This document shows positions 53,206-58,432 of a DNA stretch of 64,000 nt, piece by piece. The DNA is from Cyclobacteriaceae bacterium. GTDB taxonomy: Bacteria; Bacteroidota; Bacteroidia; Cytophagales; Cyclobacteriaceae. The position numbers and the translations under genes were made by a program. Position 1 is the stretch's first letter. Each line of letters starts with the position of its first letter. The notes beneath the pieces were generated by a model. That model was not told the DNA's origin. It did no database searches and saw only the letters and a list, made by a program, of their open reading frames with translations. The stretch lies in contig JANQKF010000032.1 of the NCBI GenBank assembly GCA_028281285.1, positions 1 through 64,000 of the forward strand, in the 5' to 3' direction.

Positions 53206-53228
53206 TTACCTAATCAACCTCAATACGG

Positions 53229-53258
53229 AAAGGCGATTCAAATTTGAGTCGCCTTTTA
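53229..53258 (+). terminator. Intrinsic terminator of the amidohydrolase operon
   Basis: AAAGGCGATTCAAA pairs with TTTGAGTCGCCTTT with one T-G pair, followed by TATT. It isolates the downstream ATPase-nuclease module from the operon. Confidence 0.8.
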
Positions 53259-53383
53259 TTGTCTTGCTAAAATCAAATAATTACATTGTATAATTCATTT
53301 ATTGAAATCTAAGACATGCAATCATTTGATGGCTTTCAGTTATCATGTTTACCAAGATTTCATCAAAAGAACTCGTATCATAA

Positions 53384-54751
53384 GTGGAAGAGCGTTTAAA
53401 CTTCTTTGAAGCCAGGTGGAAGAACTTTAAGAATTTTAAAGACACTGGCTGGATCAAAATCAAGCCAATAACAATTATTCTTGGCCCCAACAATGTGGGG
53501 AAAACAAATTTCATTGCCCCATTTCTTCTGATGAATCAAACCTTAACTTCTCGAGATACTCGGACACCTCTCATTCTGAAAGGAGATGTCTACGATGGTG
53601 GAAGTTATCGAGAAATTGTGAATGACTACGATTCAGAAAAGGACGTCTTTTTTGGTTTCAGATACGGAACTCACAAAACCGATAAGGAATTGGAGGAAGT
53701 TGGTGAGTATCCGCCTGGATCGTTCGAAATCACATTCGGCTTGGGAGAAGAAGGTAATAAGCGGATGGTCTTAAAGAAAACAACCGTGTATGACATCTAC
53801 CTCAGGAGGTTTTTCGAAATCAGCAAGGGTAAAAGAAAGGGATATAACTATAGTGGTTTAGGGAAAAATAGTATTTCAAAAGAAGAACTTAAAGCTATAA
53901 GAACAAGTATCCCAATTAACTTTGTTTTCTCCCCCAACTCCGTCCTCTACAACTATGACAGTACAGAAGTTGAAGATGAAAGAGAGCAAGATGATGACGT
54001 GGGATTTTCCAAAGGCTTTTCTAACATTCTGTCAGCCCTCTCCTTTAATTATACCATGTCTAGAAAATACTTAGGAGACTTAAGCTTCATTGGCCCATTA
54101 AGGGAGCATCCACGAAGAGTATATGAAATAACAAATGAAACCTACAATACGGTTGGTACGCATGGGGAGAATATGGCAAACCTGTTGAATAAAATTGGAG
54201 ATAAACAAGAAGTGCTCGATTCATGGGTCAAAAAATTTGGATTTGGTGATTGCCTCAAAATGGAAAATCTCGATAGCAATTTGTATGCCATTGGATTCGG
54301 TAAATCTAACTCTGAAAGATACACAACTATAGCAAATTCTGGCTTTGGGGCATCTCAAGTATTGCCCCTTATGGTGCAGGCTCTGATTTCTACTGAAGGA
54401 AGTCTTACCATTGCAGAACAACCGGAAATTCACCTAAACCCAAAGCTACAATCCACCCTTGCCGACCTTTTCGTATATATGGCTAATAACAATCAAAAAA
54501 TCATTGTCGAATCTCATAGCGAGCATATGATGTTGAGGCTAAGACGATTGATAGCCGACAAATCCATATCAGCTGATAATGTTGCAGTTTATTTTGTTGA
54601 TCAAAAGGAGGAACAAGCTAATATTAGAGAAATCAAAATCGAAGACGATGGTCATATAGAGTCACATGAATGGCCTCCCAATTTTTTCGATGATGCTCTC
54701 ACTGAATCAATGGCACTAGCAAATGAACAGTTTAAAAGAAACAATGCCTAA
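53384..54751 (+). CDS. AAA/ABC-type ATPase, DUF3696-like, first gene of a putative defence module
   Basis: Walker A is G34-PNNVGK-T41. A signature-like GFGASQVLPLM comes late, Walker B and D-loop are LTIAEQPEIHLNPKLQ, and the H-loop is VESHSEHMMLRLRRL. This is the SMC/RecF/OLD-like layout with a long helical insert. The C-terminus (GHIESHEWPPNFFDDALTES) resembles the DUF3696 end. Translation starts at a GTG directly after an in-frame TAA, and the expected N-terminus (FFEARWKNFKNF) follows. No nuclease (TOPRIM) domain is fused, unlike OLD proteins. The PIN-like gene follows after 5 bp. It is likely cytosolic and may sense infection or DNA, which is inference. Confidence 0.87.
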   Translation: MEERLNFFEARWKNFKNFKDTGWIKIKPITIILGPNNVGKTNFIAPFLLMNQTLTSRDTRTPLILKGDVYDGGSYREIVNDYDSEKDVFFGFRYGTHKTDKELEEVGEYPPGSFEITFGLGEEGNKRMVLKKTTVYDIYLRRFFEISKGKRKGYNYSGLGKNSISKEELKAIRTSIPINFVFSPNSVLYNYDSTEVEDEREQDDDVGFSKGFSNILSALSFNYTMSRKYLGDLSFIGPLREHPRRVYEITNETYNTVGTHGENMANLLNKIGDKQEVLDSWVKKFGFGDCLKMENLDSNLYAIGFGKSNSERYTTIANSGFGASQVLPLMVQALISTEGSLTIAEQPEIHLNPKLQSTLADLFVYMANNNQKIIVESHSEHMMLRLRRLIADKSISADNVAVYFVDQKEEQANIREIKIEDDGHIESHEWPPNFFDDALTESMALANEQFKRNNA

Positions 54752-54756
54752 GAAGT

Positions 54757-55236
54757 ATGGCTTTGGAGGATATAACTATAGATACAAATGTTCTGGAACA
54801 CGCCAATAATACCCAAGAAGAAAGATGCGCAAGTTCTATTGAGCTAATCAATTACCTCCTGACCTCATCGGAACTCCTATGCTTAGATCATCAACCAAGT
54901 CGTGAATTCAAGATTGAAAACAGCATTATTTGGAATGAATATACGTCTAGACTAACTCCAGGAATGCTAGGCCATACTTTCATTACCAGGGTATTATCAC
55001 AAAAAAGAATTAAGCCAGTATCTCGAAATGTAAATCAGAAAGCTAGAAATTCATTTAGACAAAACGTTAAAAAGCCAGTGGATATCGTGTTTCTGAAAGT
55101 GGCATTTAATTCAAATAGCAAGATTCTGGTATCCCATGATTTTGAGGATTTTCAAATACATAAACGAGAATTGTTCAACACCCAACTAAACATTCAAATT
55201 CTTGTGGCCCAAGAAGTGACAGCATTGGTCTCATAA
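54757..55236 (+). CDS. PIN-like nuclease, second gene of the putative defence module
   Basis: The acidic residues of a PIN domain are found in order: D9 (ITIDTNVLEHA), E50 (HQPSREFK), D109 (KPVDIVFLKVA) and D128 (KILVSHDFEDF), with the expected strand-helix pattern around them. PIN domains are metal-dependent ribonucleases, often toxins. The protein is 159 aa, close to a single PIN domain. I assign it by motif only. It begins 5 bp after the ATPase stop, so the two are one operon. The hand-counted GC in sampled lines is 35-38%, lower than a line in the preceding amidohydrolase gene (48%). Confidence 0.68.
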   Translation: MALEDITIDTNVLEHANNTQEERCASSIELINYLLTSSELLCLDHQPSREFKIENSIIWNEYTSRLTPGMLGHTFITRVLSQKRIKPVSRNVNQKARNSFRQNVKKPVDIVFLKVAFNSNSKILVSHDFEDFQIHKRELFNTQLNIQILVAQEVTALVS

Positions 55237-55341
55237 CAGCTGGACTAAAAGGAATTTAATCACTCGAAATCCTCTCTTTTCATTTTTTGACGACCGGGTC
55301 AACTTCGTTTCCGTATATTTCATTTTGAACTCAATTCATTA

Positions 55342-56334
55342 ATGGGAACCCGAGACCTCTTTTTGATCATCTGCAGCATCGGTGCAGTACAAAGTCTCTT
55401 TTGGGGGATTTACCTGATTGTATTTGACAAAAGAAGTCTATCCACCAAATTACTGGCTGGTTTCTTCCTGGCATTGGCTATTCGCATTATTAAATCCACA
55501 CTGTGGCTCTTTTATGATGAAGTACATTTGATCATTCTTAATCTGGGCTTTGCCGCGCACCTGGCCATAGGTCCATTTTTGTTGCTCTATCTAAGAAGCC
55601 TGGAAAGGGAATTTGAAATGAGGAAGTTGTATTTCCTTCATTTTATCCCGGTTGTTGCCGTACTTACCTTGAGCACAGTACTTCAGTTGGAAACATTCTG
55701 GAATATTGGTGGCTATACCATCCTGGCCGCACAATCGGTGGTTTACTTCTTATTTGCTGCTTACTGGTTTTGGAATAACAGAGGCCAATTCACGAAAAAG
55801 GAAATGGAATGGTCTACTCTCTTACTGATCGGAACCGGGATGGTGCTGGGTGCTTATTTCACCAACTATATCTCAGGACCACTTTTTTATGCTGTTGTCA
55901 TCTACATCTTCAGTTTTTACCTACTTAAGAACCTCACAGCATTATTTGGAAAAACGAAGAAATACAAAAACATCAACCTCTCAAAGTCCCGATACCAGGA
56001 GTATGGTAATAAGATCAAGTCTCATATAGACGACAATACGCCCTATTTGGACCACGACTATACTTTAGGCTCGCTCTCTGAAGACTTAAACATCCCTAAA
56101 CACCTGCTTAGCAATGTGTTTAGCGAAGAGTTGGGAATGAGCTTCACCGACTTTATGAACTCGAGGCGAATTGAAATTGCCAAAGAGAAGCTAATCAACG
56201 AGTCCCACCTTACTGTTTCAAGTATCGCCTATGACTCGGGCTTTAATACACTCTCTTCTTTTAACCAAGCCTTTAAGAAGTTTGTCAAGACCACCCCTTC
56301 CAAGTTCAGAGAAAGCGCCAAAGCCTCTGCTTAA
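55342..56334 (+). CDS. AraC family regulator with multi-TM N-terminal sensor half
   Basis: About seven hydrophobic segments occupy residues 1-205 (LFLIICSIGAVQSLFWGIYL, LLAGFFLALAIRII, LAIGPFLLLYL, AVVIYIFSFYLLKNLTALF). The C-terminal ~100 residues are the AraC double HTH (LSNVFSEELGMSFTDFMNSR, IAYDSGFNTLSSFNQAFKKF, TTPSKFRES). It is the same design as the regulator at 2330. It may control the membrane protein and aldo-keto reductase downstream or the ATPase-PIN module upstream; neither is proven. Confidence 0.9.
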   Translation: MGTRDLFLIICSIGAVQSLFWGIYLIVFDKRSLSTKLLAGFFLALAIRIIKSTLWLFYDEVHLIILNLGFAAHLAIGPFLLLYLRSLEREFEMRKLYFLHFIPVVAVLTLSTVLQLETFWNIGGYTILAAQSVVYFLFAAYWFWNNRGQFTKKEMEWSTLLLIGTGMVLGAYFTNYISGPLFYAVVIYIFSFYLLKNLTALFGKTKKYKNINLSKSRYQEYGNKIKSHIDDNTPYLDHDYTLGSLSEDLNIPKHLLSNVFSEELGMSFTDFMNSRRIEIAKEKLINESHLTVSSIAYDSGFNTLSSFNQAFKKFVKTTPSKFRESAKASA

Positions 56335-56405
56335 TTAATCCCTCACTGCCATTAATAAAGTTCTATCGTAATTATTCCATTTGATACCTTCTTTATTTCA
56401 TCAAA

Positions 56406-57527
56406 ATGGAGACGAAGAACATTCAAAAGTGCTCAACTTCACTATTCTTCCTTTTAGCAGCGTTACAAATCCTGCGTGGGTTACGAGATGTTTTCGCGCT
56501 CGAAATTGGCCTGGAACGTCTTGAATTTCTGATTTCAGGCTCCTTTGTAACAGTCACAATACTAAGTTTGATCTCAACAAGACTACGAATTTCAGATAGG
56601 CAGTGGTTAAGTGCTTTGTCTGGATTTTTGATTTTAGGTCTTCTTGTTTCAATTCAGCAATCTCTTTATGAGTTCGCATATATACTGATCGGTGGGTTCA
56701 GTCTGATTCTAATTTCTCAACTCTGGAAAACGATTTCCGGCACTACTAAAAGTAAATCAAAGCGATCGTACATGTCAGTTGCCATATGGGGAAGCCTTGG
56801 AGCAATTACAGGTCCTTTCCTCCTGATTATGCTACTGCCAATCCTTGGACATAAAGGTCTGATTGTGATGGCTTTACTCTTCCTGGTATTATCCTTACTA
56901 GTGATTCTGAATACAAGACCAATCACCCGGTTCGCGGATGTCTTTCCAAAAAGCGAAAAGCCGAAAACAAATGGTTTATGGTTGTCGACATTCGTATTTG
57001 GTTATGCGCTTCTTTCCACCTTTATCTACGTCAAACAGCTTGAAATTATCGACTCTTATACCGCTTCACCTGTTGTCAGAACGTACCTTTTTGCATTGAG
57101 GGATCTCATCATCGGATTTGTGCTGATAATACTCCAAATCTATATTTCCCGGTACAAAGTCAATTTCGACACGAAACCCATGACCTTCATGCCAATACTG
57201 ACCTTCTTTGGAATCATTGTAATCAGTTTGATTCCTACGATAAGTGTCCTGATAGTGAGTATTGTTCTTTTGAAATCTTACAATTATGCGCTAGTGAGAC
57301 CATCGAGAGAACTATATTCAGCAGTCTCACCATCAATTCTGAATTACAAGAACGGTATCGATTCTATAATTTATCGATCTGGTGATTTGGTCGCGATTTG
57401 GCTGATCACAACATTCAATCTTACGAACAAATCAATCATCTGGCTTGCATTAGGAATTTTGCCGATTGTCTTGCTCTGGTATCTGTCAGGTAAAAAAATT
57501 GAAGTACATTTAAATAGAATATCATGA
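56406..57527 (+). CDS. Polytopic membrane protein resembling ATP/ADP-carrier-like MFS proteins
   Basis: About ten to twelve TM segments fill the 373 residues (FLLAALQILRGLRDVFAL, MSVAIWGSLGAITGPFLLIM, WLALGILPIVLLWYL). Near residue 305-335 the stretch RPSRELYSAVSPSILNYKNG then IDSIIYRSGDL resembles a motif of the NTP/NDP exchange (ATP:ADP antiporter, TlcC-type) family, where REL(Y/F)TVVS and the (V/I)YR(G/S)GD box are characteristic. The N-terminal half fits this less well, so the substrate is open. It overlaps the aldo-keto reductase start by 4 bp. Confidence 0.75.
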   Translation: METKNIQKCSTSLFFLLAALQILRGLRDVFALEIGLERLEFLISGSFVTVTILSLISTRLRISDRQWLSALSGFLILGLLVSIQQSLYEFAYILIGGFSLILISQLWKTISGTTKSKSKRSYMSVAIWGSLGAITGPFLLIMLLPILGHKGLIVMALLFLVLSLLVILNTRPITRFADVFPKSEKPKTNGLWLSTFVFGYALLSTFIYVKQLEIIDSYTASPVVRTYLFALRDLIIGFVLIILQIYISRYKVNFDTKPMTFMPILTFFGIIVISLIPTISVLIVSIVLLKSYNYALVRPSRELYSAVSPSILNYKNGIDSIIYRSGDLVAIWLITTFNLTNKSIIWLALGILPIVLLWYLSGKKIEVHLNRIS

Positions 57528-58432
57528 ATAGAAGAAAATCACTTAAGTTACTGTCAACCATACCATTAGTGTCGTTGATTAGACCTGATTATTCAATATT
57601 CGAAGAGGCTAAAATACTGAAGAGATTGATTCCAGGAAGTAATGTTTCCATTCCTGTTGTGGGACTTGGCACTTGGCAAACTTTTGATGTGGGCAACAAT
57701 CAAAAAGAAAGAACGGTAAGAAGGCAGGTACTATCAAAACTTGTAGAATTGGGTGGTAGTGTGGTTGACTCATCCCCTATGTATGGTAGCTCGGAACAAG
57801 TGGTTGGTGACCTAGCCACTTCTTTAAAGATCAATGAAAAGCTCTTTATGGCTACCAAAGTCTGGGTTTCAGGAAGAGATGCAGGTATTCGTCAGATGAA
57901 GTCCTCAATAAAGAAGATGCAAAAGCCGGTGATCGACCTCATGCAAATTCACAACCTGGTCGACTGGAAAACACATATAAAGACACTCCAACAATGGAAG
58001 GAAGAGGGAAAAGTTCGCTTTATCGGCATCACACACTATGTAGAAAGTGCCTATGATCGAATGGAACAAATCATGAAGAATTATCCTGTCGATTTCATTC
58101 AACTCAACTATTCAATACTCAGTAGAACGGCAGAACGAAGCATTCTCCCATTGGCAAAAGAGAAAGGGATAGCCGTGTTGATCAATCAACCCTATGAAAG
58201 TGGTAGCCTTTTCAGAAAGGTTCGTGACCAGGAACTTCCCGAATGGACAAAGGAATTCGGTTGCAAGAGCTGGGGACAGTTTTTTTTGAAATACATTTTG
58301 TCCAACGATGCAGTTACTTGTGTAATTCCAGGCACATCAAAGCCACATCATTTAGTGGATAATCTTGGCGCTGCATTCGGTAGGATGCCGTCAGAAGAAG
58401 AAAGAAGAAAGATGGTTCAGCTTCTCTCCTGA
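57524..58432 (+). CDS. Aldo/keto reductase
   Basis: The family catalytic tetrad is intact: D82 (VVDSSPMYG), Y87, K112 (ATKVW) and H143 (LMQIHNL). The TIM-barrel C-terminus shows CVIPGTSKPHHLVDNLGAAF, part of the NADPH-binding site. The N-terminus (MNRRKSLKLLSTIPL) looks like a twin-arginine signal with RRKSLK, suggesting folded export with cofactor. This would be unusual for an AKR but occurs in some Bacteroidota members. Co-translated with the upstream membrane protein. Substrate unknown. Confidence 0.9.
   Translation: MNRRKSLKLLSTIPLVSLIRPDYSIFEEAKILKRLIPGSNVSIPVVGLGTWQTFDVGNNQKERTVRRQVLSKLVELGGSVVDSSPMYGSSEQVVGDLATSLKINEKLFMATKVWVSGRDAGIRQMKSSIKKMQKPVIDLMQIHNLVDWKTHIKTLQQWKEEGKVRFIGITHYVESAYDRMEQIMKNYPVDFIQLNYSILSRTAERSILPLAKEKGIAVLINQPYESGSLFRKVRDQELPEWTKEFGCKSWGQFFLKYILSNDAVTCVIPGTSKPHHLVDNLGAAFGRMPSEEERRKMVQLLS

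Follow-up and report, generated by a model that had tools for sequence, protein, structure and literature searches.

A putative ATPase–PIN nuclease gene pair from a Cyclobacteriaceae bacterium, a divergent relative of the candidate defence system HEC-03

Several described systems join an ATPase of the ABC or SMC/OLD type to a nuclease. Septu, Gabija and retron-associated systems use ATPases with partners or fused domains that are HNH, Toprim or helicase, not PIN. In PARIS, according to the accessible parts of the source, the ATPase AriA sequesters AriB, a tRNase that is released by a phage trigger, and VapC is a PIN enzyme that cuts tRNA (PMC12409363). PrrC and RloC also couple an ABC ATPase to a ribonuclease, within single polypeptides; PrrC is kept inactive by the type I restriction-modification (R-M) enzyme to which it is linked, and its damage is countered by phage repair enzymes (PMC2610378, available in part). 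The ATPase plus PIN architecture itself is already listed in PADLOC 2.0 (2023) as the candidate defence system HEC-03, comprising a PIN-like protein (HEC-03A) and an ATPase (HEC-03B). HEC stands for 'Hma-embedded candidates', several of which, HEC-06 among them, protect in assays (accessible sections of PMC12988326). The part of PMC13356809 available to us names HEC-03 and gives nothing more, and a literature search, with subscription papers mostly outside it, found no HEC-03 mechanism or experimental status. In the accessible text on DefensePredictor (PMC13092281), other validated PIN systems (DS-3 and DS-5) are described without an ATPase of the type studied here.

Here we describe a pair of genes in the window, the whole 64,000-nucleotide stretch of Cyclobacteriaceae DNA analysed, that are predicted to encode such an ATPase and a PIN protein. 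The reading we favour, with moderate confidence, is that they form a two-gene phage or mobile-element defence module of the HEC-03 kind, from a divergent clade, in which the ATPase would gate a PIN ribonuclease; the pair is real and the module probably functional. The initial annotation had proposed a candidate undescribed system, a novelty that the PADLOC entry removes; ATPase–PIN pairs from other loci match both HEC-03 models. The features are as follows (all on the + strand).

53228..53257, +, hairpin of 13 pairs followed by a T-rich run, resembling a terminator, between the amidohydrolase gene and the pair; consensus match only
53384..54751, +, ABC/SMC-OLD-type ATPase with AAA_15/AAA_21 and C-terminal DUF3696, 455 aa, GTG start; from Pfam and the model
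53483..53506, +, Walker A of the ATPase, GPNNVGKT, residues 34–41
54341..54358, +, ABC signature-like motif of the ATPase, GFGASQ, residues 320–325
54416..54436, +, Walker B region of the ATPase, EQPEIHL, residues 345–351 (EQPE 345–348), with Q after the Walker-B acid
54509..54526, +, H-loop of the ATPase, ESHSEH, residues 376–381
54757..55236, +, putative PIN-domain ribonuclease, 159 aa, ATG start; from the model and conserved acids D9/E61/D109/D128
54781 (D9), 54937 (E61), 55081 (D109) and 55138 (D128), +, conserved acids of the PIN protein in an alignment of 49 homologs

The open reading frames agree with the initial annotation in giving a 455-aa gene, a 5-bp gap and a 159-aa gene on the same strand, and the GTG start read for the pair sets an ATPase N terminus equal in length to those of two close relatives (loci L089 and L169). 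Low GC content is also upheld (38.8% for the ATPase gene, 36.0% for the PIN gene and 38.1% for the pair, with a window mean of 42.3%); a value as low as that of the pair occurs in 1.3% of equal-sized sliding blocks, counting those that overlie the pair itself. The 48% quoted earlier for the amidohydrolase came from one line only, the whole gene being at 45.6%. The upstream terminator, called strong in that annotation, is less certain: the hairpin exists, but because shuffled regions yield 1.8 on average (s.d. 1.4) against the one found, it is no strong evidence.

Pfam assigns the ATPase, above cut-off, to AAA_15 (3e-20), AAA_21 (2e-14) and DUF3696 (8e-11). Walker A and the H-loop are intact, as had been claimed; Walker B is so with the caveat of a Q right after its acid (54416–54427). 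This Q is the norm among these ATPases, being found in 109 of 133 (the window protein included), and may indicate slow hydrolysis, with the protein serving as a switch instead of a motor. The ATPase model (pLDDT 79.8) matches SMC heads, Rad50, GajA, PtuA and retron Eco8, and AriA is absent from the first 50 structural matches listed; the sequence profile leads to OLD, retron and Septu ATPases and to Rad50, and weakly to AriA. The ATPase fold is thereby related, as an SMC/OLD type, to those of Septu, Gabija and retrons. Among PADLOC models, matches were obtained with NsnB (1e-60), PDC-M55A (7e-56) and, over the full length, HEC-03B (3e-55), whereas two AriA models scored 2e-24 and 8e-13, far below NsnB and HEC-03B. 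The pair resembles PARIS in combining a putative ABC ATPase sensor with a small nuclease; it differs in that AriB is a Toprim effector, whereas the partner here models as PIN. From PrrC and RloC it differs in having two proteins, a PIN fold and another set of catalytic residues than their triad.

The AlphaFold model of the small protein is PIN-like (pLDDT 93.8, pTM 0.89), so the initial annotation's refuting case of a small protein with no PIN fold in structure prediction does not apply. Among PDB entries it is matched foremost by VapBC complexes and by other PIN proteins, and it is closest to VapC toxins, VapC21 being one of the top matches. By sequence the assignment is weak: PIN_3 appears at E 0.098, under the Pfam cut-off; 8 of 16 PIN partners scanned have a Pfam PIN-family match, all under the curated cut-off; and the PIN-family profile searched against PDB sequences gave VapC only at E 1.8, with no significant PIN match. 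A de novo repeat protein recovered in that last search (E 2.5e-4) was taken as spurious. The modelled fold carries acids D, E, D and D in PIN order, and in 49 aligned homologs D9 is conserved in 49, E61 in 46, D109 in 49 and D128 in 46. D9, D109 and D128 are those named in the initial annotation; its E50 was rejected as a catalytic acid and replaced by E61, because the E50 column is a gap in 45/49 homologs and E in 1/49. Two PIN relatives, L150:3548-4045 (a Bathyarchaeota metagenome-assembled genome, MAG) and L155:7342-7728 (a Dehalococcoidia MAG), have Q in place of E61 and a changed D128, and their nuclease is possibly inactive for that reason.

The small protein shares its PIN fold with VapC, but its partner is a 455-aa ATPase, and the list of open reading frames of at least 60 aa holds no other + strand frame between 54757 and 55342 that could be a small antitoxin. 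A PIN fold is not proof that RNA is the substrate. The ATPase matches to SMC heads, Rad50, GajA and PtuA, and the top Foldseek row for the PIN model, a chain of a Cas9-PcrIIC1-DNA complex, would suit a system like Mre11–Rad50, Gabija or Septu, in which the Rad50/SMC-like ATPase recognises ends or structures in DNA and the PIN protein is the DNA cutter. We nevertheless regard such a DNA-directed system as improbable, given that the titled matches of the PIN model are mostly VapC, protein-only RNase P (HARP) and mRNA-decay PIN proteins and that relatives recurrently carry an RNA ligase as third gene. Fold matches are not confined to nucleases, since two of them are RohQ cyclodehydratase.

Comparison with HEC-03 points to kinship at a distance. 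HEC-03A is matched by five of the six PIN partners first scanned (the exception being L013), for HEC-03B three relatives' ATPases score 1e-110 or better, and the range is 2e-81 to 5e-138 in the four core-clade members tested whose ATPase is full-length, compared with the 3e-55 of the window protein. Against the PADLOC models the window PIN gives nothing up to E 10, and the PINs of L089 and L090 have no HEC-03A match up to the same limit. That these PINs are therefore unrelated to HEC-03A was a reading overturned by a comparison of profiles: window-clade PINs against HEC-03A-type PINs gave a score of 46 (E 8e-7 for a single comparison), whereas the best of 60 column shuffles gave 21 (E 0.014), which indicates distant homology. 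In a quick maximum-likelihood tree with long branches (133 ATPases, L169 left out), the window ATPase forms a separate clade with L089 and L090 (100% SH-aLRT), outside an HEC-03 core of 86 rows (97%) that are all PIN-paired; PIN partners also occur outside this core at L150/L155 and L030/L059. On this sequence evidence the window pair is best described as a divergent relative of HEC-03. It shares the order of a DUF3696-type ATPase followed by a PIN of about 160–177 aa, the same four acids and related PIN profiles; it differs in its separate ATPase clade, in a PIN that HEC-03A misses and that has about 9 extra residues before E61, and in having no ligase. The divergent clade also reveals what a current defence-finding model overlooks.

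The co-occurrence that the initial annotation had suggested checking is found in other genomes. The closest ATPase relatives recovered, L169 (56% identity; viral contig), L089 (55%; Lacihabitans soyangensis) and L090 (54%; Cyclobacteriaceae MAG), each have a homologous PIN directly downstream, with 35% (L089) and 44% (L090) identity to the window PIN. When the 4704 ORFs from 140 loci were screened with an HMM built from the window, L089 and L090 PINs, nine matched (E ≤ 0.01), two of them the HMM's own members, and all nine are adjacent to the ATPase. Queried by itself, the window PIN retrieved no relatives from 394 other genomes of the phylum, from the genome_contigs set or from plasmids; PIN relatives surfaced only through ATPase searches. 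From at least 492 related genome_contigs stretches, the 80 most similar to the window ATPase were kept; 72 of them have a PIN beside the ATPase, a count that uses a wider limit and takes in seven ligase loci with an earlier PIN ORF start. This sample favours paired loci, the query alignment having been built from PIN-paired ATPases. The other eight lack a PIN, one of them for want of room. Outside this selected set pairing is rarer: a search of the order gave an ATPase match (E ≤ 1e-20) in 26/291 genomes, the window's own included, with a PIN in 7 of 25 non-self loci, and a search of the phylum gave a PIN in 12 of the 29 non-self loci returned, one locus being common to both searches. No PIN was detected for 40 of the 133 ATPases in the tree.

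The DUF3696-family ATPase appears, from these neighbourhoods, to be a shared ATPase with exchangeable partners. Matches to it occurred in 48 plasmid records, and six places were inspected; plasmids of Azotobacter, Aeromonas (two) and Rhodococcus carry ATPase, PIN and RNA ligase genes consecutively, whereas Nonomuraea and Acetobacter plasmids and the phage P2-EC5 record have a second gene other than PIN. Other second genes also follow DUF3696-family ATPases at L005, L006, L025, L026, L028, L037 and L038, NsnC-like at L005 and unnamed at the rest. The window ATPase used alone found nothing in viral_contigs; an alignment query did find relatives there, and of 80 loci kept from 149, five have a neighbour that matches PIN strongly (E < 1e-30), a ligase being present as well in three of the five, and six have a weaker match.

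Several relatives lie in defence-rich or mobile settings. The L089 pair follows type I restriction genes (N6_Mtase, Methylase_S and HSDR), recalling the linkage of PrrC to a type I R-M enzyme, and precedes Abi_alpha; the L169 pair lies just after a Resolvase gene and near a fragment of a phage integrase. A set of 109 proteins (out of 168) encoded near relatives, drawn from 28 of 44 long-flanked loci, matches 109 PADLOC families at E ≤ 1e-20 and 100 control ORFs match 5, figures that count families, not proteins, with controls taken from the window and same-genus stretches and not from the relatives' genomes. Neighbour clusters named by eye include N6-methylase-like proteins in six loci and specificity-like subunits in three. 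At L090:5252-5965 a 237-aa protein is encoded just upstream of the ATPase; by eye it was suspected to be a class III nucleotide cyclase, a suspicion dropped when Pfam gave no match.

That some relatives sit on plasmids and viral contigs, that the two genes abut or overlap in relatives, and that VapC toxins lead the structural matches of the PIN would all be compatible with a toxin–antitoxin-like addiction module, in which the PIN protein is a toxin that the ATPase neutralises, and the pair persists by stabilising mobile DNA, phage defence being incidental or absent. This we judge unlikely: the ATPase belongs to the SMC/OLD family that includes the Gabija, Septu and retron ATPases, it is roughly threefold larger than the PIN, and defence genes are among the neighbours of some relatives. 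Addiction and defence readings overlap, PARIS AriA itself having been deposited as 'AriA antitoxin'.

A recurrent third gene bears on what an ATPase-gated PIN nuclease of the defence type might do. A ligase match was found in 41 of the 72 PIN loci from the best 80 genome_contigs stretches (for example, L109 and L134) and in nine of the 12 phylum loci with a PIN, and in none of those from the order search; at L032, L033, L034 and L036 the RNA-ligase gene comes after an HEC-03-type pair. The third gene is Pfam RNA_ligase (PF09414) in both cases scanned, and the KxDG motif is present in 53/53 ligases with E < 1e-10 over all loci. The match at L168 is weak (E 0.0014), and L104, L135 and L143 have a ligase-like gene of a different subtype downstream of PIN (E about 1e-12 to the ligase HMM). 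PADLOC had no model for the single ligase submitted to it. No ligase match lies beside the pair at L089, L090 or L169, and a PF09414 search of the window genome came back empty at E ≤ 0.001. The ends left by metal-dependent PIN enzymes are generally considered to be 5'-phosphate and 3'-hydroxyl, and a ligase of this type can seal such ends directly. Kinases and phosphoesterases that heal RNA ends occur together with ATP-grasp ligases if the ends made by an RNase, above all a metal-independent one, are unusable (accessible sections of PMC7824862), and no recurrent kinase was seen by eye among the 14 largest neighbour clusters listed. A neighbouring ligase suggests that the broken RNA can be joined again. 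It is phage enzymes that mend the damage done by PrrC, whereas these HEC-03-type relatives carry a ligase in their own operon.

In the mechanism we propose, by analogy with PARIS or PrrC, the ABC ATPase would restrain or position the PIN nuclease and serve as a sensor, in line with the earlier suggestion that on sensing a phage signal it releases or activates the nuclease. The trigger would probably be a phage product, or interference with another defence such as restriction; the triggered ATPase would then let the PIN ribonuclease cleave an RNA, tRNA and rRNA being the most plausible targets, and translation would halt. In relatives, the operon RNA ligase could rejoin the cut without end-healing enzymes; the window version would lack this built-in reversal, its genome having no PF09414 ligase. 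More speculatively, and with considerable doubt on our part, the wider group might represent a widespread, reversible RNA-cutting immunity, in which an ABC ATPase gates a PIN ribonuclease acting on an essential RNA, the operon ligase reseals that RNA in many lineages after the threat, and the window clade is a ligase-free, irreversible offshoot. If the proposed mechanism holds, ATPase-gated immunity would gain a PIN ribonuclease arm beside those of PARIS (Toprim) and Septu (HNH), and the HEC-03-type operons that bring an RNA ligase of their own would bear directly on whether the host itself can undo bacterial RNA-cutting immunity. The ligase-bearing operons are a more interesting lead than the window pair.

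A housekeeping module for RNA processing or repair, with no role in conflict, could also be read from the RNA ligase genes beside relatives and from the presence of protein-only RNase P among the fold matches. We find this highly improbable: some plasmids and viral contigs carry the pair, its distribution in the order is patchy (ATPase in 26/291 genomes, PIN beside 7/25 non-self), and tblastn located neither gene at the site of the pair in 12 same-genus genomes. That absence from the site makes the window pair, as a candidate defence module, most likely a lineage-specific insertion. Its surroundings hold no recognisable defence island, a point against the defence reading; the genes around it, named by eye, code for amidohydrolases, an AraC-type regulator, a transporter, an aldo-keto reductase and mnmA. 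The nearest same-genus genome has homologs of the AraC-type regulator (72%), the transporter (39%) and the aldo-keto reductase (67%) but no pair. The segment from amidohydrolase to mnmA (53206-58432) is a variable spot: in 5 of the 12 same-genus genomes these genes are close together, with mnmA directly after the amidohydrolase gene in three and a gap of less than 0.9 kb in two more.
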